From Candidatus Dormiibacterota bacterium (GTDB taxonomy: Bacteria; Chloroflexota; Dormibacteria; Aeolococcales; Bog-877): a stretch of 48,969 nt of DNA. The position numbers and the translations under genes were made by a program. Below are positions 1,291-35,911 of the stretch, in pieces; the stretch's first letter is position 1, and each line of letters begins with the position of its first letter. The notes beneath the pieces were generated by a model. The model saw only the letters and a list, made by a program, of their open reading frames with translations, ran no database searches and was not told the DNA's origin. The stretch lies in the NCBI GenBank assembly GCA_027313505.1, contig DAHVDN010000020.1:1-48969 (forward strand), read 5' to 3'.

Positions 1291-2435
1291 CCGATCGGTG
1301 GTTGACGATCGGAGTCGAGGAGGAGTTCCAAATTGTCGACCAAAACGGGCAACTCCGCTCCCACATCGAGACGCTTCTGGCGCAGGCGACTCCGCTCCTA
1401 GGCGAGGACGTAAAGGCCGAGATGCTTCAGTCGGTGGTCGAGGTGGCCACTCCAATTTGCAGTGACACCGGCGAGGTGCGGGCCCATGTGGCCCGGCTGC
1501 GCCGCGGGGTCAGCGACCTCCTTGGCCCATTCGCGCTGCGGATAGCTTCGGCGGGAACACACCCCTTCGCCAACTGGCATGAGCAGCAGGTCACCGATCT
1601 CGAGCGTTACAAGATGCTCGAGGAGGAGATGCAGGACGTGATCCGGGAGCTGCTCATCTTCGGGATGCACGTGCACATCGCCATTCCCGATCCCGAGCTC
1701 AGGATCGAGATTGCCAATGAGGCGCGGTACTTTCTCCCCCACCTCCTGGCGCTGTCGACATCCAGCCCGTTTTGGATGGGTCGGCAGACCGGGCTCAAGA
1801 GCTATCGAAGTGTGGTCTGGTCCCGTTTCCCAAGGACCGGGATACCTCCGGACTTCAGCAGCTACGATGAATTCGACAACTACACGGAGCTTCTGGTAAA
1901 GACCGGCTCAATCGACAACGGCAAGAAGGTCTGGTGGGATCTTCGCCCCCACTGCACCTATCCGACGTTGGAGTTTCGGGTCTGCGACGCGGTCACCAAG
2001 CTTGACGAAGTTGTGTGTCTTGCCGGGCTCATCCAGGCGATCTGCGCCAAGCTGCTCAAGTTGCGTCGCTCCAACCTCGGATTCCGCAAGTACCAACCCA
2101 ACCTGATCGCCGAGAACAAATGGCGCGCGCTGCGCCATGGGTTGGATGGGAGTCTGATCGACTTTGGGAAAGCGCAGGAGGTGCCGATGCGGCAGCTGGC
2201 CGCAGAGCTGCTCGACTTCGTGGACGACGTCCTGGATGAGCTGGGCTCACGTCAAGACGTGGAGTATCTGCACACCCTCCTGGCTGAGGGCACCAGCGCT
2301 GATCGCCAGCTCAGATGCTTTGCCGAGACCGGCTCGCATCGCGAGGTGGTCGAGCTGTTGGCGCGGGAAACCTTGGAGGGGGTGGCGAACGTAGCTCATG
2401 CCTCAGGGCTTGGCGGGACCACAGTTCCGGGCTGA
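1287..2435 (+). CDS. carboxylate-amine ligase, GCS2 (YbdK/EgtA-like) family
   Basis: A 382-aa protein, the normal length for the glutamate-cysteine ligase family 2. Diagnostic motifs are IGVEEEFQIVD at the N-terminus (acidic metal/ATP site), GMHVHIAIPD near residue 125, and WDLRPHCTYPTLEFRVCD near residues 210-230. Family members join the gamma-carboxylate of glutamate, or another acid, to an amine with ATP. YbdK-type members have weak or uncharacterised activity, so the product should not be taken to be gamma-glutamylcysteine. The GTG start overlaps the ATP-grasp stop. The gene ends 23 bp from the convergent esterase with no clear terminator between them. Confidence 0.9.
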   Translation: MTDRWLTIGVEEEFQIVDQNGQLRSHIETLLAQATPLLGEDVKAEMLQSVVEVATPICSDTGEVRAHVARLRRGVSDLLGPFALRIASAGTHPFANWHEQQVTDLERYKMLEEEMQDVIRELLIFGMHVHIAIPDPELRIEIANEARYFLPHLLALSTSSPFWMGRQTGLKSYRSVVWSRFPRTGIPPDFSSYDEFDNYTELLVKTGSIDNGKKVWWDLRPHCTYPTLEFRVCDAVTKLDEVVCLAGLIQAICAKLLKLRRSNLGFRKYQPNLIAENKWRALRHGLDGSLIDFGKAQEVPMRQLAAELLDFVDDVLDELGSRQDVEYLHTLLAEGTSADRQLRCFAETGSHREVVELLARETLEGVANVAHASGLGGTTVPG

Positions 2436-2458
2436 GGAGTGCTGGCCGGACGAGGTCT

Positions 2459-3199
2459 TCAGCAGAATCGGGGTAGGTGGTGAGCGAGTTGGCTTCTCCA
2501 CGAAGGCCAGTCGTGGGGGACGTCCCACCCCCAGAGGTCAACCTGACTGGGAATTCCCTTGCGGGCGAGCAGCGCGCCGAACGACTTGGTGGACTCCAGC
2601 GCACCGGTGGTGTCTTCCCACATTCCCTGCCCGCACACCAGCAGCAGTCGAGCCCGCTCTTGCAACCATCGAAGGTGATCTCCCTCCGCATTGGCAACGT
2701 AGTCCATCGGGTTGTTGAAGTAGGTCGCTGAGCCTCGTTCCCACTGACCGCCCACTACCGAGACGTCATAGACCCCGGAAAGGCAAAGAGCGGTGGGGAA
2801 TAGATCTGCCCGCTTGAGACAGAAGTTGGCAGCGTGGTAGGCCCCGAAGCTGCAACCGATCAGGCCGATGTCCAACCGACCTTGGCAGTCGGCGTAGATG
2901 GTCGGGACCAAGTGGTTGACCACCCAGTCTTCGAACCGTCCGTGATGGCGGGCGCGGTTCTCCAAGGAGAGGTCGGGATTGCGCCATGACTCCTGGTCGA
3001 AGCTGTCCAAACAGTAGAGCTTCACCCTCCCTTGGTCGATCAGACCCGACACTGCGGCGACCATCCCCCGTTCTTCGAAGTCCTGGGCACGCCCCAGGTC
3101 TGTGGGGAACACCACCATGGGCTTGCCGAAATTGCCGTAAGCCAGCACCTTCCCGCTGCCCCCTTTTGGTGACTCGAGCTGGAACTGCTCCCGTCGCAT
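2459..3199 (-). CDS. esterase, COG4947-type alpha/beta hydrolase
   Basis: A 246-aa alpha/beta hydrolase with the nucleophile elbow G-C-S-F-G (Ser117) followed by AYHAANF, and a C-terminal VPHDWPSWR that supplies the likely catalytic His. The pattern MRRE...SPKGG..VLAYGNFGKPMVVFPTDLGRA is typical of the small cytosolic esterases of this family. I chose the ATG at 3199 because homologues start with MxREyhrw-like residues; a TTG at 3214 would add five residues and lie 1 nt after the upstream stop. It is the last gene of a probable minus-strand unit (MFS, enterochelin-esterase-like, this gene). It may cleave or release a product of the facing ligases. Confidence 0.85.
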   Translation of the reverse strand: MRREQFQLESPKGGSGKVLAYGNFGKPMVVFPTDLGRAQDFEERGMVAAVSGLIDQGRVKLYCLDSFDQESWRNPDLSLENRARHHGRFEDWVVNHLVPTIYADCQGRLDIGLIGCSFGAYHAANFCLKRADLFPTALCLSGVYDVSVVGGQWERGSATYFNNPMDYVANAEGDHLRWLQERARLLLVCGQGMWEDTTGALESTKSFGALLARKGIPSQVDLWGWDVPHDWPSWRSQLAHHLPRFC

Positions 3200-3215
3200 C
3201 AGCTGAGGCCCCAAC

Positions 3216-4289
3216 CTAGCCCCAGCAGCTCTGCAAGAGTCCGATCAGATGTGGCGCGAACGCGTCCCTCCAGGCCACCCAGTTGTGGCCGTCGGGTAGC
3301 CGATCCAAGGATGCCCGGTACCCCAGACGACCGAGGCCCGCGGCGATCGCGGTATTGGCCAAGAGTGTCTCCTCCACCCCCCCACAGGTGAGGACCGCAG
3401 GTACTGGCCGGGCAGCCGATTTGGCGCTGAGAAGGCTCTCGGTGAAGTTGCAAATCCTCTCCATGTGGTCAAACCTCAGGTCAGCCGAGAAGTAATGGTG
3501 ATTGAACACGCTTGCGGACTGCAAGAAGAGGCCGCCAAAGAGGCAGGGCATCGTCCATTGTGCGAAGAGCACCGCCACCCCTCCCAGGCTCGCTCCCATG
3601 CCCACCCGCCAGCGCGGGGCTCTTGGGATAGCGACCAGGCTGCCCAGATGCGGCAGGACCTCCAGCGCCAGCGATCGCGTGAAGCTTTCCGACGCAGAGT
3701 AGTCGCGATCGCGTTGCACAGGATGGAGCAGAGCCGCTCGCATGGGAGGAAGTCGGCCCAGCGCCACCTCATAATCGAGCAGCTGGGTCAAGCTCGAGTA
3801 TCTGTCATATTCCAGGCCATCCAGCGCTATGAGAAGGGGCAGCTCCTCGAGCGGGTCGCTTCCCGGTGCGCTCCATAGCCTGGCCGGCATCGGAGAGTCG
3901 AGAGACGGACAGGGGATTTCAAAATCCTCGATGCGGCCGCTCGGAAAAACCGCCATCCTGGTCCATTCAGGAGGTCGGTACTCCGGGAATTCGATCACGG
4001 ACTTGTCGCCGAACGGTCCCGAGGCTCGAAGTGGGTTGCCTGGGTCTGTCGCCAATTTGGAGCCGCCTGACCCGAGGTGGAGCTGGAAGAGGTACTCCAT
4101 CCGATTGACCAGAGGTCGTGAGAGGACCACCTCGAAACCACCCTCCGTCCGCTCCAAAGAAGGCCCCTCCCGCGGCCATACGACCTCCTGGAACAGGGCC
4201 ACCCGCTCGACCTCCGGACCCGGGTCAGGGAGTCGGAAGGTGACCTCAGTGCTGGTGACCAGAGGGCCTGGGGGAAAATTCCACGGCAT
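3216..4289 (-). CDS. enterochelin-esterase-like alpha/beta hydrolase
   Basis: A 357-aa protein with an N-terminal beta-sandwich-like segment (residues 1-120, resembling the Fes/CBM48-like domain) and a C-terminal alpha/beta hydrolase with G-M-G-A-S-L-G-G (Ser234) and the late motif LPDGHNWVAWRDAF containing the likely catalytic His. This is the architecture of Fes-like esterases that hydrolyse ester or amide bonds of siderophores and related peptides. The stop lies 16 bp upstream of the next esterase's ATG (1 bp from its alternative TTG), so the pair is coupled. No iron-uptake genes are nearby, so a siderophore role is unsupported. The adjacent ligases make a peptide-type substrate more likely. 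Confidence 0.82.
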   Translation of the reverse strand: MPWNFPPGPLVTSTEVTFRLPDPGPEVERVALFQEVVWPREGPSLERTEGGFEVVLSRPLVNRMEYLFQLHLGSGGSKLATDPGNPLRASGPFGDKSVIEFPEYRPPEWTRMAVFPSGRIEDFEIPCPSLDSPMPARLWSAPGSDPLEELPLLIALDGLEYDRYSSLTQLLDYEVALGRLPPMRAALLHPVQRDRDYSASESFTRSLALEVLPHLGSLVAIPRAPRWRVGMGASLGGVAVLFAQWTMPCLFGGLFLQSASVFNHHYFSADLRFDHMERICNFTESLLSAKSAARPVPAVLTCGGVEETLLANTAIAAGLGRLGYRASLDRLPDGHNWVAWRDAFAPHLIGLLQSCWG

Positions 4290-26044: not shown

Positions 26045-27943
26045 TTGGCGGCCGTAGCCCCCGGGGAGGCGCTCTCATCCCCAGTGGTGTCGACATGGAC
26101 TTTGCTTGAGGTGTTGTCGGTGGGGCTCGGACGCAGACTTCTTGGCAGGCCGCTTCGATCGAGTGAAGGTGCTAGGGAGCAGATCAGCCCAATCGAGGGG
26201 CTCTCCGCGCTGTCGCTGGACGCCCTGACCTCGGTCGCTTACGGGCCCCAGGCGCTTCTGGTGGCTCTGGGTGCCGGCGGTCTGATGGCTCTACGCCTGG
26301 CCCCATGGATCAGCGTCGCCATAGTGGGATTGCTGGGCTTGCTTGTGGCGTCCTACATGCAGGTGATCGTCGCCTATCCCGGCGGGGGCGGTGCCTACGC
26401 GGTGGCCAGGGCCAACCTGGGGCGCCGGCTATCGCTGCTGGCGGGCGCCGCCCTCATCGTCGACTACACCCTCACCGTGGCGGTGTCGATATCCGCTGGG
26501 GTCGAATCCGTGACCTCGGCGTACCCCAGCCTTGCCCCGTACACCGTTCCCGCGTGCGTCGGGGTCCTGACCGTCATCACCTTCCTAAACCTGAGGGGCC
26601 TGGCAGAGGGGGCCAGGGCCTTTCTGGTCCCCACTTTGGCCTTCATAATCGTGATCCTCGGGATCATCGTCGTGGGTCTCGTCCATCCGCTCGATCCTGG
26701 TCTGCATCAGCCTGGGGCCGCCCAGGTTTCGACTCACGCACTTCAGTCCGTGGGGTTGCTCTTGGTACTCCAGGCCTTTTCGGCAGGGTGCAGCGCGCTG
26801 ACCGGGGTGGAGGCGATAGCCAATGGGGTGCCGCTCTTCCGAAAACCACGGGTCACCAGAGCGCGCCAGACCGAACTGATGCTGGGGATCCTCCTTGCAG
26901 CGATGCTGCTGGGGCTGGCGGCGCTGGTCCAGCGCTTCAGGGTTGAGCCGAGGACGGGGGACGCGGTCCTCAACCAGATCGTGGGATACGCCATCGGCAG
27001 GGGCTGGGCGTTCGACGCCATATCCCTGCTGGTGATGCTGGTGCTGGCGCTGGCTGCGAACACCTCCTTTGGCGGGCTTCCGGTCCTGGCCAGCCTTCTG
27101 GCAGAAGACCACAGGCTTCCTCATGCATTCGCGATCCGGGGAGACCGGCTGGTGTTCGGCAGTGGTATCTGGGTACTGGGACTGCTTTCGGCGGTCCTCC
27201 TGGTTGCTACCGGCGGCAACACCAACGCCCTCATCCCTCTGTTCGCGATCGGAGTCTTCACCGGATTCACCCTGGCTCAGGCCGGGATGGTGCGCCACTG
27301 GCTAAGCGGGCGCCAGTCGGGATGGAGATGGCGCGCCGTCATCAATGCCATCGGAGCCACCGCGAGCGGGATTTCCACCGTGATTTTCGTGGTCACAAAG
27401 TTTCGAGAGGGGGCTTGGGTGGTGGTGGTCGCGGTGCCGCTTTTGATCCTGCTGTTCGTTCGAGTCCACACCTACTACAGGAGTGTCGCCGCCGAGCTTC
27501 GCCTCGGAACCGTGCCGGCCAAGCCGCGTCGAGGCAGGACCCTCGTGGTGGTTCCCTTCACCGACATCTCGCGTCTCACCCGTGAAGCGCTCTCCCAGGC
27601 GCTTTCGATGGGCGACGAGGTCTTCGCGGTGACGGTCGTGTTCGCTGAGGATGATGCACGAAGAGTTGCCGTGGAGCAGGAGTGGCAGCGCTGGGATCCG
27701 GGAGTGCCCCTGGTGGTGCTGCGCTCGCAGTACCATTCCGTCGCGAGACCGCTGCTTCGCTACATTGGCAGCCTCAAGCCGTCGCCGACGCGCCGGGTGG
27801 TGATGCTGATTCCCATTTTGGTACCTCGACGCTTCTGGCACCGGGCACTACACAACCATCTCGACTTGGTTTTGTCGGCCGCGCTGAGGCGCCGCCGCCA
27901 CGTCGTGGTGGCGCGGCTGACTCTTCCCTTGCACGACGAGTAG
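26045..27943 (+). CDS. kimA: KimA-like potassium/proton symporter (APC superfamily)
   Basis: A 632-aa protein with about twelve transmembrane helices (residues 50-460) and a cytosolic C-terminal domain. It follows Bacillus KimA (YdaO) closely: LSALSLDALTSVAYGPQALL, YPGGGGAYAVARANLG, ALIVDYTLTVAVSISAGVESVTSA, CSALTGVEAIANGVPLF and the C-terminal RFWHRALHNHLDLVLSAALRRRRHVVVARLTLPLH. KimA imports potassium with protons and is inhibited by c-di-AMP. Two starts are possible: TTG 26045, 5 nt after TACCCT (leaderless type), or GTG 26120 with GAGG 8 nt upstream, which begins where KimA begins. No c-di-AMP riboswitch was recognised upstream. It lies 383 bp before the Ehr operon. Confidence 0.88.
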   Translation: MAAVAPGEALSSPVVSTWTLLEVLSVGLGRRLLGRPLRSSEGAREQISPIEGLSALSLDALTSVAYGPQALLVALGAGGLMALRLAPWISVAIVGLLGLLVASYMQVIVAYPGGGGAYAVARANLGRRLSLLAGAALIVDYTLTVAVSISAGVESVTSAYPSLAPYTVPACVGVLTVITFLNLRGLAEGARAFLVPTLAFIIVILGIIVVGLVHPLDPGLHQPGAAQVSTHALQSVGLLLVLQAFSAGCSALTGVEAIANGVPLFRKPRVTRARQTELMLGILLAAMLLGLAALVQRFRVEPRTGDAVLNQIVGYAIGRGWAFDAISLLVMLVLALAANTSFGGLPVLASLLAEDHRLPHAFAIRGDRLVFGSGIWVLGLLSAVLLVATGGNTNALIPLFAIGVFTGFTLAQAGMVRHWLSGRQSGWRWRAVINAIGATASGISTVIFVVTKFREGAWVVVVAVPLLILLFVRVHTYYRSVAAELRLGTVPAKPRRGRTLVVVPFTDISRLTREALSQALSMGDEVFAVTVVFAEDDARRVAVEQEWQRWDPGVPLVVLRSQYHSVARPLLRYIGSLKPSPTRRVVMLIPILVPRRFWHRALHNHLDLVLSAALRRRRHVVVARLTLPLHDE

Positions 27944-28036
27944 GTGGACCTAAGGTACCTCCCGTGCCCTTCGGATAGGCGCCTCATCCGTGCCATCCCC
28001 CAAGAGGTGTGACTCTCACTCCCACGGTGTTCGAAC

Positions 28037-28067
28037 TTGACACCATCCACCCACGGTCTGTGAGAAT
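28037..28067 (+). promoter_or_regulatory. candidate promoter of the Ehr operon
   Basis: A perfect -35 hexamer TTGACA (28037-28042) is followed 19 bp later by GAGAAT (28062-28067), 4 of 6 to TATAAT. The spacing is slightly long. It is the best housekeeping-type promoter upstream of the six-gene operon. Confidence 0.45.
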
Positions 28068-28096
28068 GTCGGGAGCAGCGCGATGAGGCCCGCGTA

Positions 28097-28112
28097 AGTC
28101 GGATCGCCGACT
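28097..28112 (+). promoter_or_regulatory. interrupted palindrome AGTCGG-ATCG-CCGACT
   Basis: Six-base perfect arms around a 4-nt centre, 30 bp downstream of the candidate promoter. It could be an operator or a leader hairpin. Its arm and spacer sizes equal those of the 48127-48142 palindrome, but the sequences differ. Confidence 0.4.
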
Positions 28113-28326
28113 GATGGCTTCTATTGAGAAGTCCCTGGTCCATCACCATCAGGAGAGCCGCGTTGCCACACCCGCTGGAGCTGGCGCAGCCCTGCGTCCT
28201 CAGTTGGCCATGTCGCATCCGTGATTGCGCGAACGGCCGCCGACTGGTCGGCACCGCCTTCGGCCACTTTGACGACCGACGGGAGGACGCGAGAACTGGA
28301 GTCTGCGGCAGAGATCACCAGCCGCC

Positions 28327-29274
28327 GTGCTAGCTGCTGCACTCGGCCAGCTGGTCGCCGTCTTGACCGTGTTGGCGCTGGCGCCGCTGCTGAAGGGGGT
28401 CATCGAGAACCTCAAGGCCAAGGTGCAGTCACGTCGCGGGGCCTCTCCTTTCCAGCCCTACTATGATCTCCGCAAGCTTCTGGGCAAGCAGCGCACAGTC
28501 ACCCCAGAGGCCTCGTTCATCTTTCGCATTGCCCCCTACGTGGTGTTCGCGACGCCCATCGCCTTCGCCATGCTGATCCCCGTGCTGACGGCCATGCCCC
28601 TCAGCTGGGCACTCATGGCCGACATGGTGGGGAGTGGCTTTGTCATTGGGATTGGGGGATTCTTCGCCAACCTGGCAGCGATGGACAGTGGCAGTCCTTT
28701 CGGGGGTCTGGGTGCCAGTCGATCGCGCTTCGTCTCGTCACTGGCGGAGCCGACCTTCATCGTGGTGTTCTTTGCGGTGGGCTTCATCTCAGGGGGCACC
28801 GTCCCGTTTGTGGTCAACGACTCCCTGTTCACCAGCTCCTCCCAGATCGTCCCCAGCCACGCACTCGTGGCTGCGGCCTTTCTCATGGTCATCCTTGCCG
28901 AGGCCGGCAGGCTCCCAATCGACAATCCCAACAGCTCCCAGGAGCTGTCGATGATCGAGTCCTCACGGCTCCTGGAGTTCTCCGGGCCTGACCAGGCTCT
29001 GATGGAGTGGGGAGGCTTCATGAAGCTCTTTGTGTTGTTGATCGTGTGGCTCAACGTGCTGGTGTTGCCATTGGGGCTGGCCAATGCCGTCAGCGTTGAG
29101 GGCTTTGCTGTCGCCGTGGCGACTTTGGTCGCCAAGATGTTTGGCGCAGCCGTCCTGCTGGTGGGAATCGAGTCGGCCCTGGCAAAGATCCGCATCCTGC
29201 GCGTACCCGAGTACCTCGGCGGCAGCTTCGTCCTGGCCTTCCTGGGATTGGTCCTCTATACGGTGGGCCACTGA
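28327..29274 (+). CDS. HyfC/NuoH-like membrane subunit of Ehr-type complex
   Basis: A 315-aa membrane protein of the respiratory-complex-I subunit 1 (NuoH/HyfC/EchB) family with about eight transmembrane helices. Conserved features are the loop SRRGASPFQPYYDLRKLL near residue 35 and the acidic loop AEAGRLPIDNPNSSQELSMIESSRLLEFSGPDQALMEWGGFMKL near residues 195-240, which in this family contacts the quinone or active-site channel and couples redox change to ion movement. It anchors the small and large subunits to the membrane. GTG start 28327 has no strong Shine-Dalgarno. First gene of the operon; HyfE follows after 33 bp. Confidence 0.9.
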   Translation: MLAAALGQLVAVLTVLALAPLLKGVIENLKAKVQSRRGASPFQPYYDLRKLLGKQRTVTPEASFIFRIAPYVVFATPIAFAMLIPVLTAMPLSWALMADMVGSGFVIGIGGFFANLAAMDSGSPFGGLGASRSRFVSSLAEPTFIVVFFAVGFISGGTVPFVVNDSLFTSSSQIVPSHALVAAAFLMVILAEAGRLPIDNPNSSQELSMIESSRLLEFSGPDQALMEWGGFMKLFVLLIVWLNVLVLPLGLANAVSVEGFAVAVATLVAKMFGAAVLLVGIESALAKIRILRVPEYLGGSFVLAFLGLVLYTVGH

Positions 29275-29307
29275 TGGCTGATGTGCCGCTCCTGAGTCAG
29301 GGGGGCC

Positions 29308-29955
29308 GTGATGCTCCCTGAGGTGATCCTGGCGGCCCTCATCCTCTTGGTCAGCTTCCAGTTCATCGTTACCCGAAGGTTGGGCGCGGCGGTCTTCGCC
29401 TATGCGCTGCAGTCCTGGTTGCTGGGTGGCGTGGCGATTGCGCTGTTCGCGGACTCCGGACTTATTGAGCTCCTGCTCTTCGGGCTGCTCATCATCATCG
29501 TCAAGGGCGTCATAATCCCCCAGTTCTTGGGCTATCGGACCAAGTCGGTCTTGGCGGGGCGCAGAGAGACCTCCTACTATGTCCGTTTCCCCACAGCGCT
29601 GCTCCTCGGAGCGGGGCTGACGTTGGTGGGATTCTTGGTCGCGACCCGAATTCCGTTTGCCCCCCAGCTGCTGCCGGAGTCAGTCCTGGGAATAGCCATG
29701 GCTGTGTTCCTTCTGGGTCTCTTCACTACCACCGCGAGGCGGGACGCGATTCTTCAGGTGGTCGGCCTGTTCGCGGCCGAGAACGGACTTCTGTTGGTGG
29801 GTCTGGTGGTGGCTCCGAGTCTCAGCCTGCTGATCGAATTCGCGATTGTTCTGGATATCTTGATCGCGGTCTTGGTTGTCGGATTCCTGGTTGCGCGGAT
29901 GCACCAGGAGGTTGCCAGCACCGATACCTCCGAGCTGACGAGGCTGCGCGGTTGA
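29308..29955 (+). CDS. HyfE-like membrane subunit (NuoK-related)
   Basis: A 215-aa protein with about seven transmembrane helices that matches HyfE by layout and by segments such as LLLFGLLIIIVKGVIIPQFLGY, AAENGLLLVGLVVAPSLSLLIEFAIVLDILIAV. HyfE is the NuoK-type small subunit of hydrogenase-4-like complexes; the buried Glu in AAENG and the Glu in LIEF are in the usual ion-path positions. Start GTG 29308 is directly followed by ATG 29311, with a GGGGGG-containing stretch upstream. Its stop overlaps the TTG start of the next gene. Confidence 0.88.
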   Translation: MMLPEVILAALILLVSFQFIVTRRLGAAVFAYALQSWLLGGVAIALFADSGLIELLLFGLLIIIVKGVIIPQFLGYRTKSVLAGRRETSYYVRFPTALLLGAGLTLVGFLVATRIPFAPQLLPESVLGIAMAVFLLGLFTTTARRDAILQVVGLFAAENGLLLVGLVVAPSLSLLIEFAIVLDILIAVLVVGFLVARMHQEVASTDTSELTRLRG

Positions 29956-31436
29956 TCAACTCCTTTCTGCTCATCGGCGTCTTGGCAGTGCCCCTTATCG
30001 CGGCAGGGGCCAGTGGCCTGGTTCGGCGTGACGAAACGCGATACGCGATCGTGATCCCGAGCGCCCTCGTCACGGTGGCGTTGGCTGGAACCCTGATCGC
30101 CCGGGTTGTATCGGGCGGGCCGGTCAGCGCCTTGGGGGGCTGGCTGTACATGGACGACCTGAACGCTGTGGTTCTGCTGGTGGTGATGTTCGTTTCAGCA
30201 CTCGCCGGCGCCTACTCCATTGCCTACTTCCGATCGCCGGCCCAAGGACACGTGCTCCGCCGCGGGGAGCTGCGAAAGTACTTTGCCCTGTTCCACCTCT
30301 TCACCCTGACGATGGTGCTGGTCTCTGTTTCAGGAAACCTGGCCCTGCTTTGGACTGCGGTCACCGCCACCACCTTCGCCTCGGCCCCGCTGGTCGACTT
30401 CTACGGCTCTAGGGAGCCACTGGAGGCCGCATGGAAGTTTCTGATTCTTGCCGTGGCCGGAGAATTGGTCGCTCTTCTGGGTTTCCTCCTTCTTTACGCG
30501 GCGGGCATCGCGGCTCTAGGCCGCTCTTACAGCTTCTCCATCCCGGTCGTGAGTGGAGCCGCAGCACATCTGTCGCCATCCCTTGCGGGTCTAGGCTTCC
30601 TGCTCGTCCTGGTTGGTTTCGGGACTAAAGCCGGACTGGCGCCGATGCACACCTGGCTACCGGATGCTCACAGCCAGGCGCCGGCCCCGGTGTGCGCCAT
30701 GCTCTCGGGCGCGGAACTGAACTGCGCGATGCTGGCCATCGTCCGAGTGCTGTCGCTAGCTACCCCGTCCCAGGGCGGGAAGGGGGGAGATCTCCATGCG
30801 GCGCTGCTCGGTTTCGGGCTCCTGTCCATGGCGGTGGGGGTCTTGTTTCTCATCTCGCAGCGTAACTACAAGCGCTTGTTGGCCTACTCCTCGGTGGAAC
30901 AGATGGGCCTGATCGCGGCCGGGTTCGGCATCGGCGCTCCGCTGACGGTGCTGGGGGCCCTGCTGCAAATGGTCACCCACAGTCTCGCAAAAACTCTGAT
31001 GTTCTTCAATGCGGGCAACCTGCTGCTGCGCTTCCGCAGCACCACCATCGCCGATGTCGGCGCAGTCGCGAGGGCCGCGCCGGCAACTGCGGCGCTGCTC
31101 ATTCTCGGTGCCCTGGCCATCGCGGGGGCACCACCATTCGGGTTGTTCGTGTCGGAGTTCGCGATAGTGAGCGGTGCGCTACGACATTCGGATTGGGCTG
31201 TGGGCTCACTCATCGCCGGCCTGCTGCTGATCGGTTTCATCGGTTTGGTCGTGCCATTCAGCCGGATGACCTTCGGGGACGGGCGACCGTCAGAGCCGCA
31301 GCCCCGCGAGAACCTCGGGGTGGCGGTGCTAGCCCCTGGGTATGTACTACTAGCTGCCGTACTGGTGCTCGGCTTTTGGATCCCGGGACCACTGCACTCC
31401 CTGGTGGTAGGTGCCAGCCGGGTGGTCAACCGATGA
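29952..31436 (+). CDS. HyfF-like antiporter-type subunit
   Basis: A 494-aa protein of the NuoL/M/N-Mrp antiporter family, HyfF branch. Hallmarks are SLEAAWK-like REPLEAAWKF (residues 155-163), GFGTKAGLAPMHTWLPDAHSQAPAP (K226 in TM7), THSLAKTLMFFNAGN (TM8 Lys) and PPFGLFVSEF. As I recall HyfF, the transmembrane-5 glutamate that is part of the ion path sits in W-x-A-x-E-A-T-T. Here that site reads W-T-A-V-T-A-T-T (Thr138). New acids appear at E171 and E255. It starts with TTG 29952 overlapping the HyfE stop, and ends overlapping the next ATG. Confidence 0.9.
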   Translation: MINSFLLIGVLAVPLIAAGASGLVRRDETRYAIVIPSALVTVALAGTLIARVVSGGPVSALGGWLYMDDLNAVVLLVVMFVSALAGAYSIAYFRSPAQGHVLRRGELRKYFALFHLFTLTMVLVSVSGNLALLWTAVTATTFASAPLVDFYGSREPLEAAWKFLILAVAGELVALLGFLLLYAAGIAALGRSYSFSIPVVSGAAAHLSPSLAGLGFLLVLVGFGTKAGLAPMHTWLPDAHSQAPAPVCAMLSGAELNCAMLAIVRVLSLATPSQGGKGGDLHAALLGFGLLSMAVGVLFLISQRNYKRLLAYSSVEQMGLIAAGFGIGAPLTVLGALLQMVTHSLAKTLMFFNAGNLLLRFRSTTIADVGAVARAAPATAALLILGALAIAGAPPFGLFVSEFAIVSGALRHSDWAVGSLIAGLLLIGFIGLVVPFSRMTFGDGRPSEPQPRENLGVAVLAPGYVLLAAVLVLGFWIPGPLHSLVVGASRVVNR

Positions 31437-32992
31437 GAGGGGATCTGCAGCGCCTCGCCGAAGCCATGGGTGTGAAGTTGGAGTGGCCGCGCGAGGATGA
31501 AGCTATTCTGCGCTGCCCCCAAGACGCCTTCCGGGAGATCGCCGGCGAGCTCGCAAGGCGCATGACTCTCTCAGACTTCTTCGCCACCAACTCCTCAGGG
31601 TCCAAGCCCCACCTGACGGCCATTTTTCAGGCGCCAGGCGAGCCCGCGTGGCTGCTGGTGATGGTCGAGCTCTCAAGCCCTTCCTTCGCCTCGGTTACCC
31701 CCGACATCCATGCGGCCAGCTGGTACGAACGCGAAATCTTTGAGATGCACGGAGTCCAGCCCGTAGGCCACCCCGCGCTTGGTCCGTTGCGGCTCGACCA
31801 ATTGCCGGTGCCGCCCGCAGTCGGCCGAGGTGGTGGCGTCGGCGTTGACGTCCTGCCCAGCCCATCTCTTCCCCGACCCCGGCCGTCAGTAACCGGCCAG
31901 GGAGTCTTCCAATTGCCCCTCGGCCCCGTTCGCAGTGGCCCCCAGGAATCCGCGGAGTTTCTTTTCGCCTCGGGTGGCGAGGACATAGTCGAGGTCGACC
32001 TCCGCCTCGGGTTCAAATACCGGGCGGTTGAGGTGCTGGCGGAGGGCCAACCGATGGATTGGGCCCTGCATCTCGCCGAGCGGATGGCGGGCACTTCCAG
32101 TTTTGCCAATGGACTCGCCTTCACCCTGGCGGCGGAGCGCGCGTTGGGGGTCGGTGTGAGCGCCGCTTGTGACGACACCCGGGTGCTACTGGCGGAGCTT
32201 GAGCGCTTGCAGAGTCATTTCGGTACAATCGGCCGCCTTGCCGACACCACCGGACTACTGGTTGCCTCGGCGCAGTACGGGCTGCTCCGCGAGGAGGTGC
32301 TCAGGGCCTGTGGAGGTATCGCCGGCCATCGCTACCTACGCGGAGTCCTGCGGGTCGGTGGCATGGAGATGTTGCCCGGTCCGGCAGCACGGGGTCAACT
32401 TCAATCGCAACTAAAGGGCTGGGCGGTGCGTGCCACCGGGTTGCGGAGGCTTCTGGAGCAGACCGCTACCTTCATAGACCGTCTCGATACCACGGCGGTC
32501 CTTCAGGCCGACTACGCCGATGAACACAACCTTGTTGGACCGGTCGGCAGAGCCTCCGGCGTTGACCGGGACGTCCGTCGTGACCACCCGTACGCTGCCT
32601 ATCCAACCGTCTCCTTGGCGGTGCCGACCATCGCTGATGGTGACGCCGAGGCCCGCTTCCAAATCTTTGCCGAGGAGATTGCCCAATCTCTCTCGGTGAT
32701 GGCACAGCTCTTAGATCAGTGGCCGACTTCGGAAGGGGAAGGGGAAGGGGAAGGGGTCGAACTTCCAGTGCGGGCGGGATCGGCGCTGGGGTGGGTCGAG
32801 TCACCAGGTGGCGAGACTCTCACCTGGCTGGAGCTCGATGATGAGGGCCGGGTGGTGCGGTGGAGGACACGGCCGGGGTCGGTGGTCAATTGGCACCCCT
32901 ACGCGCACGCCTGTGGCAGCGGCAACAACCTAACCGACTATCCGGTGATTGAGGCCAGCTTCTCTCTCTCGGTAGCGGAGTTCGATCGATGA
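31433..32992 (+). CDS. HyfG/HycE-like large subunit lacking all Ni-Fe cysteines (Ehr type)
   Basis: A 519-aa fusion of a NuoC-like domain (residues 1-125, with ASWYEREIFEMHGVQPVGHP) and a NuoD/HyfG-like domain. Recognisable parts are QESAEFLF, ELERLQSHF, the VGPVGRASGVDRDVRRDHPYAAYP stretch and the end NNLTDYPVIEASFSLS. In hydrogenases the first Ni-Fe motif reads ERVCGICSFAH; here it is E-R-M-A-G-T-S-S-F-A-N (residues 216-226). The second motif DPCxxC at the C-terminus is absent. All four metal ligands are gone, so the subunit cannot hold a Ni-Fe centre. ATG 31433 overlaps the upstream stop. A SEGEGEGEG tract near residue 435 comes from a DNA repeat. Confidence 0.92.
   Translation: MRGDLQRLAEAMGVKLEWPREDEAILRCPQDAFREIAGELARRMTLSDFFATNSSGSKPHLTAIFQAPGEPAWLLVMVELSSPSFASVTPDIHAASWYEREIFEMHGVQPVGHPALGPLRLDQLPVPPAVGRGGGVGVDVLPSPSLPRPRPSVTGQGVFQLPLGPVRSGPQESAEFLFASGGEDIVEVDLRLGFKYRAVEVLAEGQPMDWALHLAERMAGTSSFANGLAFTLAAERALGVGVSAACDDTRVLLAELERLQSHFGTIGRLADTTGLLVASAQYGLLREEVLRACGGIAGHRYLRGVLRVGGMEMLPGPAARGQLQSQLKGWAVRATGLRRLLEQTATFIDRLDTTAVLQADYADEHNLVGPVGRASGVDRDVRRDHPYAAYPTVSLAVPTIADGDAEARFQIFAEEIAQSLSVMAQLLDQWPTSEGEGEGEGVELPVRAGSALGWVESPGGETLTWLELDDEGRVVRWRTRPGSVVNWHPYAHACGSGNNLTDYPVIEASFSLSVAEFDR
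32731..32756 (+). repeat. (GGAAGG)4 hexanucleotide repeat, G-quadruplex-like
   Basis: Four tandem GGAAGG units plus GG give four GGGG runs (32735-32756) separated by AA, a textbook G-quadruplex motif on the coding strand. It encodes alternating Glu and Gly in the large subunit. Unit changes would keep the frame. Confidence 0.85.
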
Positions 32993-33831
32993 GCCGGTGG
33001 ATTGCCAAAGGTCTGAAAGGGGGTATCCACACCACCCGCTTTCCGGAGACGGTCACTACCGGAGAGGAGGGGGCCCCGTCGACCGTGAGAGTCAGGTTGC
33101 AGGGACTCAACCCTGCTGTGGCTCTGGCCGCCAGTTCCCGTTGCCCCACCTCAGCCATCAGCACCGATGGGTCAGAGACTGCTGGTGAGCTTCGCTTCGA
33201 CGCTGGGGCCTGCGTTCTCTGCGGACGCTGCAGCCGGGAGTTTCCATCCGCATTCACCCAGGTCCGCGATCCTCGAGTCGCCGTCGTGAGTCGCGACCGC
33301 CTCCGCGCGACGTTCAGCTGGGACGAGGAGCATGAGTTAGCGCCCGTGTCGCTTCAGGCGACCGCCCAACTCCTGCAGCAAGCGACATCTCGGCTCTTTC
33401 GTCACTCCCTGCACATACGCCACGTAGACGCCGGCTCGTGCAACGGGTGCGAATCCGAACTGCAGATGTTGAGCTCCCCCTATGTGGATCTCCAACGGTT
33501 GGGGATCTTCTTCACTCCCACGCCGCGTCACGCCGACGTTCTGCTCGTGACCGGCGTCGTGACTCACAGCATGACCGGGCCCCTTCTGGAGACCTACGCG
33601 GCCATGCCATCGCCCAAGTTGGTGATTGCGGCAGGGGCATGTGCCATCAGCTGCGGGAGCTTCGAAAACAGCAGTCTGACCAATGGTCCGCTGGACAGGT
33701 TGCTGGCGGTCGATGCTTACATCCCAGGTTGCCCTCCGACGCCCCAAGCTCTTTTGCACGGTCTGCTGCTAGCCGTTGGCCGGGCCGGCGAACGGTACCG
33801 GGCCGGACAGGAGGAGCCGGATGGCGCTTGA
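32989..33831 (+). CDS. HyfH/HyfI fusion: half-ferredoxin plus NuoB-like small subunit
   Basis: A 280-aa protein. Residues 1-100 form a HyfH/NuoI-like domain in which only C52 (RCPTSAI), C75, C78 and C81 (ACVLCGRCSREFP) remain; the position that would be the last cysteine of the second motif is F85. In two-cluster ferredoxins exactly these four hold one [4Fe-4S] cluster. Residues 140-270 form the NuoB/HyfI small subunit with C151 and C154 (GSCNGCESEL), C218 (AGACAIS) and C248 (IPGCPPTP), the proximal-cluster ligands. Electron flow would go through two clusters to the membrane arm. ATG 32989 overlaps the upstream stop. Confidence 0.9.
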   Translation: MSRWIAKGLKGGIHTTRFPETVTTGEEGAPSTVRVRLQGLNPAVALAASSRCPTSAISTDGSETAGELRFDAGACVLCGRCSREFPSAFTQVRDPRVAVVSRDRLRATFSWDEEHELAPVSLQATAQLLQQATSRLFRHSLHIRHVDAGSCNGCESELQMLSSPYVDLQRLGIFFTPTPRHADVLLVTGVVTHSMTGPLLETYAAMPSPKLVIAAGACAISCGSFENSSLTNGPLDRLLAVDAYIPGCPPTPQALLHGLLLAVGRAGERYRAGQEEPDGA

Positions 33832-35911
33832 GCTTTTGGCGGTCGCATTGGCGCTGTACTCCGCGGCCAGTCTGCTGGGCTTTGGGGTACTGCGGTGGCG
33901 GTTCTCTGCAGAGCTCTCGGTAGCCGCCGCCCTGATAGGTGGGCTGCTGACGGTGGCCATGGCGGCCGTCTGGCTGGGGGGGGGGCGCGGGAGCCTCACG
34001 CTCCCGATCAGCACTCCAATAGGGGGCCTGGCATTCAGGGCCACCCCGCTGGCGGGCACCTTCTTGCTGCTCAGCGGAGTCGTCGGCGCCGGTATCTCGC
34101 TCTACACGGCCGGATACGCAGCTCACGTGGGTGGCCCGCTCCGACAGGCCAGCTTGCACTGCCTGTTGAACCTCAGCTTTGCTTCCGTACTGCTGGTTTT
34201 GGCTGCCGCTAACGCGTTCACCTTCCTGCTGGCGTGGGAAATGATGGTGATAACTACCTACGCCTTGGTGACCCTGGAATTCGATCGCCCGGGTCGTCCC
34301 CAGGCGGCGCTGCTCATGTTGGTGTTGGCCAAGGTCGGCTTCGTGTCCATGGCCATCGGATTCATCGCACTAGGTGCGCTGCGGGCGGGGGTCTCCTTTG
34401 CCTTCCTCTCCCACCATCCATCCGCAAGCGGAGCGCTGGCTTCCGCCGCCTTCGTGCTCTTCTTGATCGGCTTTGGGGTCAAGGCCGGTCTGGTCCCACT
34501 TCAGGGATGGCTATCTGAAGCTCATCCAGCAGCTCCGGCCAACGTCTCCGCCGCCCTTTCGGGCATCGTGGTTTCGATGGGTATCTATGGACTGGTGCTG
34601 ACCCTGGTCACGCTACTCCCCTCGCCCGCAGGTTGGTGGGGCTACTTGACCATGGGCGCGGGTGTTGTGACCGCCGCCTACGGCGTCCTGTTTTCACTGC
34701 TGGTCCCGAACCTCAAGCGGATGTTGGCCTACAGCACCATCGAGAACCTCGGCTTTATGGTCGCCATGTTGGGGGTGGCGCTGGTGTTTGCGAGCAGCCA
34801 CCTCCATCTTCTCGCGGCAGCGGCCCTGGTGGTGGTCATTCTCCACGCCTTCTATCATGCCCTCCTCAAGAGCACTCTGTTCTTGGGCGCGGGCTGTGTT
34901 GACGTCGCCGCGGGTGGTCTCGACATGGACCGGTTGGGCGGGCTGGCGCGCCGCATGCGCTGGTCGACGATACTTTTCTTCATCGGTGCCATGGGCCTGT
35001 CCGGTGTGCCCCCGCTCAACGGCTTTCAAACCGAGTGGCTGGGCTTGCAGATGCTGATTCGGGGCCGGATACTCGCCACTCCAGAGAGTCGCGTTTACAT
35101 GGCAGCGGCGGGCATGGTGCTGACCTTGACCTTTGCGCTGGCAGCGACTGCCTACATTCGCGTCTTCGGTGGCACCTTCCTGGGGGCGCCCCGAAGTCGC
35201 CGCGCAGAGCACGCGGTGGAAGTGCCGATCACCATGCGACTTGGGATGCTGATGACGGCCGGAGTGGCCGTTCTGACAGCCCTCATCCCGCCGCTGGGCC
35301 TGGGTGGACCGGTGGCCTCGATAGAAGGGGCCACCCATGTTCCAGGACTGCTCAATGCGCTGCTCCCACCGTTCTTCCTGCACCCGAACCAGTTTGCCCT
35401 GCCCATTCAAGTGGGGGGAACTTTTCTCAGTGGGATTCTCCACGCCAACGGAATGGTCATCGTGCCGACCAGCTTCAGCTACGCCTTCATTTCGCCAACC
35501 TTCATCTTCTTGAGCCTGGCATGCATCATTGCCCTGACCGCTGCAGGGATCCGGCTGCTGGGCCGTGGTGCGCCGCGCAAGAGTGACGTCTGGATTGGTG
35601 CCGGAGGCGAGTACCGGGCCTCAATGCAGTACACATCCAGCAGCTTCACCAACTTGTTCCGCTCAACCTTCGGGGGGGTCTTTCGGGACCAGCGCCAGAT
35701 CCAGCGCGACTATCACCAGGCTCCTTTCTTCACCCACTCCGTGCGTTACGTACGTCGGGTCGTGGAGCCCGTTGAAACCTATGCATACCGACCGGTCGTC
35801 AACTGGGCTCAGTCGCTGTCGCTTGCCGCGGGCAAGCTTCAGTCTGGCCATGTGAATCTGTACCTGCTTTACCTCCTGGTCGTATTCCTCATAGTGCTCG
35901 TGGTGGGCTGA
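33821..35911 (+). CDS. HyfB-like antiporter-type subunit
   Basis: A 696-aa polytopic protein of the HyfB/HycC (NuoL-related) family. Ion-path residues are present: E in LLAWEMMVITTY (TM5), K in GFGVKAGLVPLQGWLSEAHP (TM7), H and K in ILHAFYHALLKSTLF (TM8), and E in LNGFQTEWLG. The C-terminus has the HyfB-type soluble stretch ending GEYRASMQYTSSSFTNLFRSTFGGVF and a final helix. AGGAGG lies 8 nt before ATG 33821, which overlaps the small-subunit stop by 11 bp. It is last in the operon, whereas hyfB is near the front in the E. coli hyf operon. Confidence 0.92.
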   Translation: MALELLAVALALYSAASLLGFGVLRWRFSAELSVAAALIGGLLTVAMAAVWLGGGRGSLTLPISTPIGGLAFRATPLAGTFLLLSGVVGAGISLYTAGYAAHVGGPLRQASLHCLLNLSFASVLLVLAAANAFTFLLAWEMMVITTYALVTLEFDRPGRPQAALLMLVLAKVGFVSMAIGFIALGALRAGVSFAFLSHHPSASGALASAAFVLFLIGFGVKAGLVPLQGWLSEAHPAAPANVSAALSGIVVSMGIYGLVLTLVTLLPSPAGWWGYLTMGAGVVTAAYGVLFSLLVPNLKRMLAYSTIENLGFMVAMLGVALVFASSHLHLLAAAALVVVILHAFYHALLKSTLFLGAGCVDVAAGGLDMDRLGGLARRMRWSTILFFIGAMGLSGVPPLNGFQTEWLGLQMLIRGRILATPESRVYMAAAGMVLTLTFALAATAYIRVFGGTFLGAPRSRRAEHAVEVPITMRLGMLMTAGVAVLTALIPPLGLGGPVASIEGATHVPGLLNALLPPFFLHPNQFALPIQVGGTFLSGILHANGMVIVPTSFSYAFISPTFIFLSLACIIALTAAGIRLLGRGAPRKSDVWIGAGGEYRASMQYTSSSFTNLFRSTFGGVFRDQRQIQRDYHQAPFFTHSVRYVRRVVEPVETYAYRPVVNWAQSLSLAAGKLQSGHVNLYLLYLLVVFLIVLVVG

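Follow-up and report, generated by a model that had tools for sequence, protein, structure and literature searches.

Energy-converting-hydrogenase-related (Ehr) complexes which lack the ligands for a Ni-Fe centre are already known, and their substrate is given as unknown (PMC6349859, PMC6728331, PMC10284858). Separately, 'formate hydrogen lyase' and mutS were listed in 2010 beside the crcB motif (Weinberg 2010, PMC2864571), and a 2024 review reads the fluoride-linked formate hydrogenlyase as formate oxidation in fermentation (PMC11139923). We describe here a six-gene operon from a Candidatus Dormiibacterota bacterium, located within a stretch of 48,969 nucleotides (contig DAHVDN010000020.1 of assembly GCA_027313505.1), which is called the window below. 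It is well supported by its sequence as an Ehr-type complex, related to the group 4 hydrogenases and to complex I and predicted to be unable to bind Ni-Fe. The complex probably serves fluoride defence rather than the hydrogen metabolism of this soil bacterium.

The operon has its fold and its subunit types (C, E, F, G, H/I and B) in common with hydrogenase-3 and hydrogenase-4 of E. coli (HycE, HyfG), except that it has no counterparts of HyfA, HyfD and HyfJ and no Ni-Fe ligands, and no hyp genes were found. With respiratory complex I (NuoB, C, D, H, L, M) it shares modular homology and the proximal cluster, but it has no NADH module, and the Tyr and His of the quinone site are absent. With the other Ehr complexes it shares the group 4 hydrogenase-like subunit set and a Cys-less large subunit. 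The other Ehr operons examined begin with gene B (B-first), retain GPVHAGxxEPGHF and NKSFNLSYSG-like motifs and lack a fluoride riboswitch, whereas the operons of the clade to which the window belongs begin with gene C (C-first), carry R167 and K195, and have the riboswitch.

Gene content and the missing Ni-Fe site

The six genes occupy positions 28327-35911 of the window in the order C-E-F-G-H/I-B, and were identified from the list of open reading frames (ORFs) together with Pfam and NCBIfam searches and alignments, as follows.

28327-29274, plus strand: gene C, NuoH/HyfC-like membrane subunit, with E141, E206 and E217 kept (Pfam, NCBIfam, alignment)
29308-29955, plus strand: gene E, HyfE-like membrane subunit (NCBIfam hydrogenase 4 membrane subunit, E 1.2e-23)
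29952-31436, plus strand: gene F, HyfF/NuoM/N-like antiporter subunit, with K226 and E402 kept and the Glu of transmembrane helix 5 (TM5) changed to Thr (Pfam, NCBIfam, alignment)
31433-32992, plus strand: gene G, 519-residue NuoC and NuoD fusion, a HycE-like large subunit without Ni-Fe cysteines, with the family-specific R167 and K195 (Pfam, alignment)
32989-33831, plus strand: gene H/I, single-cluster ferredoxin domain (C52, C75, C78, C81) fused to a NuoB/HyfI-like small subunit (C151, C154, C218, C248) (Pfam, alignment)
33821-35911, plus strand: gene B, HyfB/NuoL-like antiporter subunit, with E155, K236 and E420 kept, numbered from 33776 (Pfam, NCBIfam, alignment)

The preliminary description of this DNA had proposed a tightly overlapping, hydrogenase-4-like operon of six genes. 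All six are confirmed, with 4-base overlaps at three junctions (E-F, F-G and G-I). The ORF of gene B was listed from 33776; the likelier start is 33821, at an ATG behind GGAGGAG. The gene set had also been regarded as a compact variant, a view which is not sustained: the same compact set is the standard form of a large clade, and is nothing peculiar to the window.

When the gene G product is aligned by profile with HycE of E. coli (7z0s_E) and Mbh of Pyrococcus (6cfw_L), its residues A219, S222, S513 and E516 fall unambiguously on the four Ni-Fe cysteine positions. This agrees with the earlier reading that A-G-T-S (residues 219-222) replaces C-G-I-C and that DPCxxC is gone, and the same alignment rules out cysteines at shifted positions. 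A sequencing error is also ruled out, because the ten close homologues of the large subunit (52-66% identity) carry like substitutions, being A-S-S-E or nearly so. None of the NiFe-hydrogenase Pfam models matches the gene G large subunit. AlphaFold nevertheless predicts a normal fold (predicted local distance difference test, pLDDT, 79.9; predicted template modelling score, pTM, 0.85), for which the best match in the PDB is E. coli HycE, with a template modelling (TM) score of 0.87.

The host genome is a Dormibacterota metagenome-assembled genome (MAG) of 3.18 Mb, 92% complete, and several of the best named matches to the large subunit come from Candidatus Dormiibacterota MAGs. It encodes the NuoD of complex I. 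No HypD, HycI-type protease or PF00374 [NiFe] large subunit was detected in it, while control genomes gave matches. The absence of hyp and endopeptidase genes, noted previously for the window, thus extends to the genome as far as it is sequenced.

A quick maximum-likelihood tree was made of 97 large subunits; its branches are long. All C-first large subunits form one clade (Shimodaira-Hasegawa-like approximate likelihood ratio test, SH-aLRT, 100), nested within Cys-less Ehr sequences, and clade A, which contains the window, is likewise a single clade in this tree (SH-aLRT 100). The set of loci behind the riboswitch counts below consists of the best 80 matches to the sequence alignment plus relatives, and is no unbiased census. 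The C-first subfamily is found in Dormibacterota, Pseudomonadota, Acidobacteriota and Actinomycetota, and in plasmid-borne islands. The family-specific residues of its large subunit are R167 (His in hydrogenases and complex I), K195, T273, W454, E507 and A508; two of them, R167 (93%) and K195 (100%), are peculiar to the fluoride clade. In several unrelated genomes (L026, L027, L044, L079, L088, L108) two Ehr operons of different subclades adjoin each other, in convergent, divergent or tandem arrangement.

The operon therefore has a Cys-less large subunit of group 4 type, a small subunit with the proximal [4Fe-4S] ligands, NuoH-like and antiporter-like subunits, and a tree position among Ehr sequences, while the cysteine ligands and the maturation and endopeptidase genes expected of a [NiFe] group 4 hydrogenase or formate hydrogenlyase are missing. 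The earlier assignment to the Ehr type is accordingly upheld. The accompanying statement that the rest of the complex is intact is true of the predicted fold and of the proximal-cluster ligands; it is not true of the ferredoxin half of H/I, which has ligands for one [4Fe-4S] cluster instead of two, nor of HyfF, which has lost its TM5 Glu. The proximal cysteines are conserved in every type. In the ferredoxin domain, the P type keeps all eight cysteines, while clades A and B and three of the four D sequences have lost exactly one cluster's four ligands (aligned to 40, 45, 48 and 85) and retain all four ligands of the second cluster. Because ligands are lost and kept by whole clusters, this suggests that electron transfer continues.

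The fluoride riboswitch

With Rfam's own model, the fluoride riboswitch (RF01734) was found directly before gene C in 7/7 loci scanned, all from Pseudomonadota. Upstream of gene C in 13 Dormibacterota operons this model scores about 20-30 bits. A first covariance model (R1) was too proteobacterial, and missed the clade-A leaders and the window; a second (R2) includes them. In 100 loci, with hits matched by script to operon starts, R2 places a riboswitch near the start of gene C in 51 of the 52 C-first operons for which leader sequence is available: 10/10 distinct operons in clade A, 10/10 in clade B (L039 being read by hand), 5/5 of the D-like and 26/26 of the P type. The one exception is the second operon in L088. 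By contrast, R2 finds none in the 31 B-first operons with leader sequence, which comprise Cys-bearing group 4 and classical Ehr operons.

R2 was trained on 31 aptamers including that of the window, and its scores for the training sequences hold by construction. Rfam's own model and untrained plasmid loci support the link to the fluoride switch independently of this training. Four plasmid operons outside the training set (Burkholderia cenocepacia, B. multivorans, Caballeronia and Mycobacterium branderi) are C-first and Cys-less with RF01734 upstream; in M. branderi it stands before a NUDIX gene at the head of the operon. RF01734 is absent from one B-first operon of Azospirillum, also outside training. 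Over the 31 aptamers, 98.4% of the cells in P1 and the pseudoknot are paired (46-57% in sliding controls), and none of 500 shuffles reaches the covariation score. It is concluded that the C-first clade is very likely a fluoride-linked Ehr subfamily, and we consider it likely that the window operon still belongs to it functionally.

The features of the window leader are as follows.

28037-28067, plus strand: promoter-like TTGACA (28037-28042) and GAGAAT (28062-28067), just upstream of the riboswitch and similar in clade-B leaders (read from sequence)
28070-28130, plus strand: fluoride riboswitch aptamer RF01734, clade-B type (Rfam 22.5 bits, E 5.5e-4, 521-nt scan)
28116-28133, plus strand: 7-bp hairpin reusing the 3' pseudoknot strand, a possible expression platform
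28163-28167, plus strand: TTGCC, the last bases homologous to the start codon region of the relatives' clade-B gene C (blastn breakpoint 28167 against L026 and L027)
26045-27943, plus strand: APC-family permease, upstream and probably outside the operon (Pfam AA_permease_2)

The riboswitch was missed by an Rfam scan of the whole window and found by the narrow scan of 521 nt. Taken by itself the match is a weak claim; it is strengthened by the intact pairs (4/4 standard pairs in P1 and 6/6 in the pseudoknot), by the covariation, and by the presence in two congeneric genomes of leaders homologous to it at 77-79% identity. The promoter-like elements are separated by 19 nt, and were not listed by a consensus scan.

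The leader is related to those of clade B. The permease is syntenic with the gene preceding the clade-B operon of a congeneric genome (L027; blastn 26148-28167 against 1427-3433, 74%), and the homology runs through permease and riboswitch, takes in five bases at the start of the clade-B gene C, and ends there; the clade-A gene C starts 160 bases further on. Two genomes (G002 and G003) each have one operon of clade B and one of clade A, adjacent and convergent, and each of these operons has its own riboswitch. The simplest reading of these sequences is that the clade-B operon has been lost in the window's lineage and that the clade-A operon now lies behind the clade-B leader, which would make this a natural regulator swap.

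Neighbouring genes

Clustering of the neighbours of related operons gave the Pfam families CrcB, DUF190, enolase, MFS, MutS domain V pairs and cyclopropane synthase; two of these, CrcB and enolase, are well known from the response to fluoride (PMC11139923). The islands around the relatives hold crcB, eno, ppa, DUF190, MutS pairs and phosphoglycerate mutase. On plasmids of Burkholderia and Mycobacterium, eno, DUF190 and further genes of the fluoride response share an island with the operon. Similar partners (ppaC, eno, gpmA and crcB types) are found under a fluoride riboswitch in the fluoride resistance island of Enterobacter cloacae FRM (PMC5533749), the text of which does not mention a hydrogenase-like complex. 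No Mo enzyme or formate dehydrogenase partner was present next to the operon among the neighbour families scanned.

Some further observations concern the same neighbourhoods. Tandem pairs of MutS-domain-V proteins of about 500 residues, shorter than the MutS of mismatch repair, occur beside many operons (L029, L031, L036-L041, L066, L081, L106, L111, L114, L123, L149, L150), and in clade B the pair overlaps the end of gene B. The island on the M. branderi plasmid (L151) consists of a histidine phosphatase, a universal stress protein, NUDIX, the six-gene complex, eno, DUF190 and MFS, and adjoins PE/PPE and WXG100 genes. The host genome of the window encodes a CLC protein (L147). It also has a second RF01734 match, of 29.2 bits (G000:C210:8129-8191, L145), between an MFS transporter and a dynamin-like GTPase; both families are also found beside relatives' operons.

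Function of the complex

We give about even odds to the proposal that the complex is a fluoride-induced, redox-driven ion pump which repairs the proton-motive force. Accumulation of hydrogen fluoride (HF) lowers the proton-motive force, and antiporters are common among riboswitch-controlled genes (PMC11139923, a 2024 review). Rising fluoride would act through the riboswitch to raise expression of the operon. Low-potential electrons from a ferredoxin-like donor would enter the Fe-S clusters of the complex and reach an acceptor bound where Ni-Fe or quinone sits in related complexes, and the energy released would drive H+ (or Na+) outward via the HyfB/HyfF/HyfC-like subunits. This export would offset the proton-motive force and the pH lost through entry of HF and export of F-. 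The charged residues of the membrane arm, listed above for the HyfB-, HyfC- and HyfF-like subunits, are mostly kept.

The proposal draws on homology, the conserved clusters and HF physiology, and its donor, its acceptor and the pumping are putative. Several observations count against it. crcB was not found in the host genome. At the TM5 Glu position of HyfF, clades B, D and P have E or D, and all ten clade-A members have T, S or A (T in the window). This replacement in clade A speaks against pumping by the HyfF subunit, and the window's version may pump less. The site at which an acceptor would bind lacks the Tyr and His of complex I, the NuoD-like subunit having G220 at the Tyr position and R167 and Q171 at the two His positions. 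The window riboswitch is also weak: its score is below the Rfam gathering score of 34, 197 nt separate its end from gene C, and no T-run follows the hairpin in the leader. The L027 leader carries this hairpin too, with a T-run behind it, as a terminator competing for the strand of the pseudoknot. Because the hairpin is kept in the window but the T-run is gone, the switch there may act in another way, or may no longer act. The preliminary proposal of an ion-translocating redox complex with a non-hydrogen partner is likewise still inferred; the proximal Fe-S ligands and most proton-path residues speak for it, and the loss of the key Glu of HyfF in clade A speaks against it.

The weak riboswitch could indicate that the operon is a generic Ehr complex with an unrelated job, and that the aptamer is a decaying remnant of the lost clade-B operon. 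A leader of clade-B type whose homology ends at the clade-B start codon, the low score, the long spacer and the missing T-run all fit this. Against it, the P1 and pseudoknot pairs of the window are all intact, and nine other Dormibacterota genomes have clade-A operons with a riboswitch of their own immediately ahead of gene C. We consider this explanation distinctly unlikely. We regard as unlikely, though a little less so, a ferredoxin:quinone oxidoreductase, that is, a cut-down complex I induced by fluoride. The NuoD-like fold and the retained proximal cluster would suit such an enzyme, and a quinone pool is likely because complex I is encoded in the genome, but Gly and Gln occupy the quinone-binding Tyr and His positions and the His of the first loop is Arg. 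For an exporter of fluoride or HF, driven by redox or by the proton-motive force with R167 and K195 as a putative anion site, speak the restriction of these residues to the fluoride clade and the failure to detect CrcB in the window genome; other members of the clade, however, adjoin crcB and CLC genes, and we know of no precedent for anion export by this superfamily. We consider it improbable. Slightly more doubtful still is its specific form, in which the former Ni-Fe/quinone cavity with Arg167 and Lys195 would bind F- or HF and use the passage of electrons to expel it.

A working group 4 [NiFe] hydrogenase or formate hydrogenlyase, as labelled in the fluoride literature, has only the slimmest chance, and is already contradicted by the sequences. 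HycE is the closest solved relative, and elsewhere the genome has a gene resembling formate dehydrogenase, interrupted by an in-frame TGA whose context is like that of selenocysteine. Yet all four Ni-Fe ligands are gone in the window and in the other clade members examined, neither HypD nor HycI nor another NiFe large subunit is present in the genome, and the operon has no formate dehydrogenase gene. The formate dehydrogenase-like molybdopterin protein (G000:C44:7707-9368, L154) has its TGA in ARI*HSATVPGLGTSFGRG, where it probably encodes selenocysteine, and is unlinked to the operon.

The 'formate hydrogen lyase' of the fluoride regulon (PMC2864571, PMC11139923) is associated with the same riboswitch class, and probably represents the same genes as the window operon. 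In contrast to the label used in those papers, every riboswitch-linked operon examined here is without a Ni-Fe site. Since the complexes linked to fluoride form a separate Cys-less clade and have a gene order of their own, the regulon's 'formate hydrogenlyase' is, as judged from sequence, no formate hydrogenlyase wherever it was checked. It is this clade and its gene order that the data add; Cys-less Ehr complexes, and the occurrence of the genes beside the crcB motif, were already known. Our literature search found no paper linking Ehr complexes with the fluoride riboswitch; the founding riboswitch paper, reportedly that of Baker et al. in 2012, was beyond its reach, and the link may stand elsewhere.

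Ehr complexes have so far had no assigned role, and these data join that puzzle to the puzzle of the 'formate hydrogenlyase' in the fluoride regulon. One Ehr complex thereby gains an inducing signal, a testable phenotype and culturable hosts. The findings also suggest that defence against fluoride may generally include restoring the proton-motive force.

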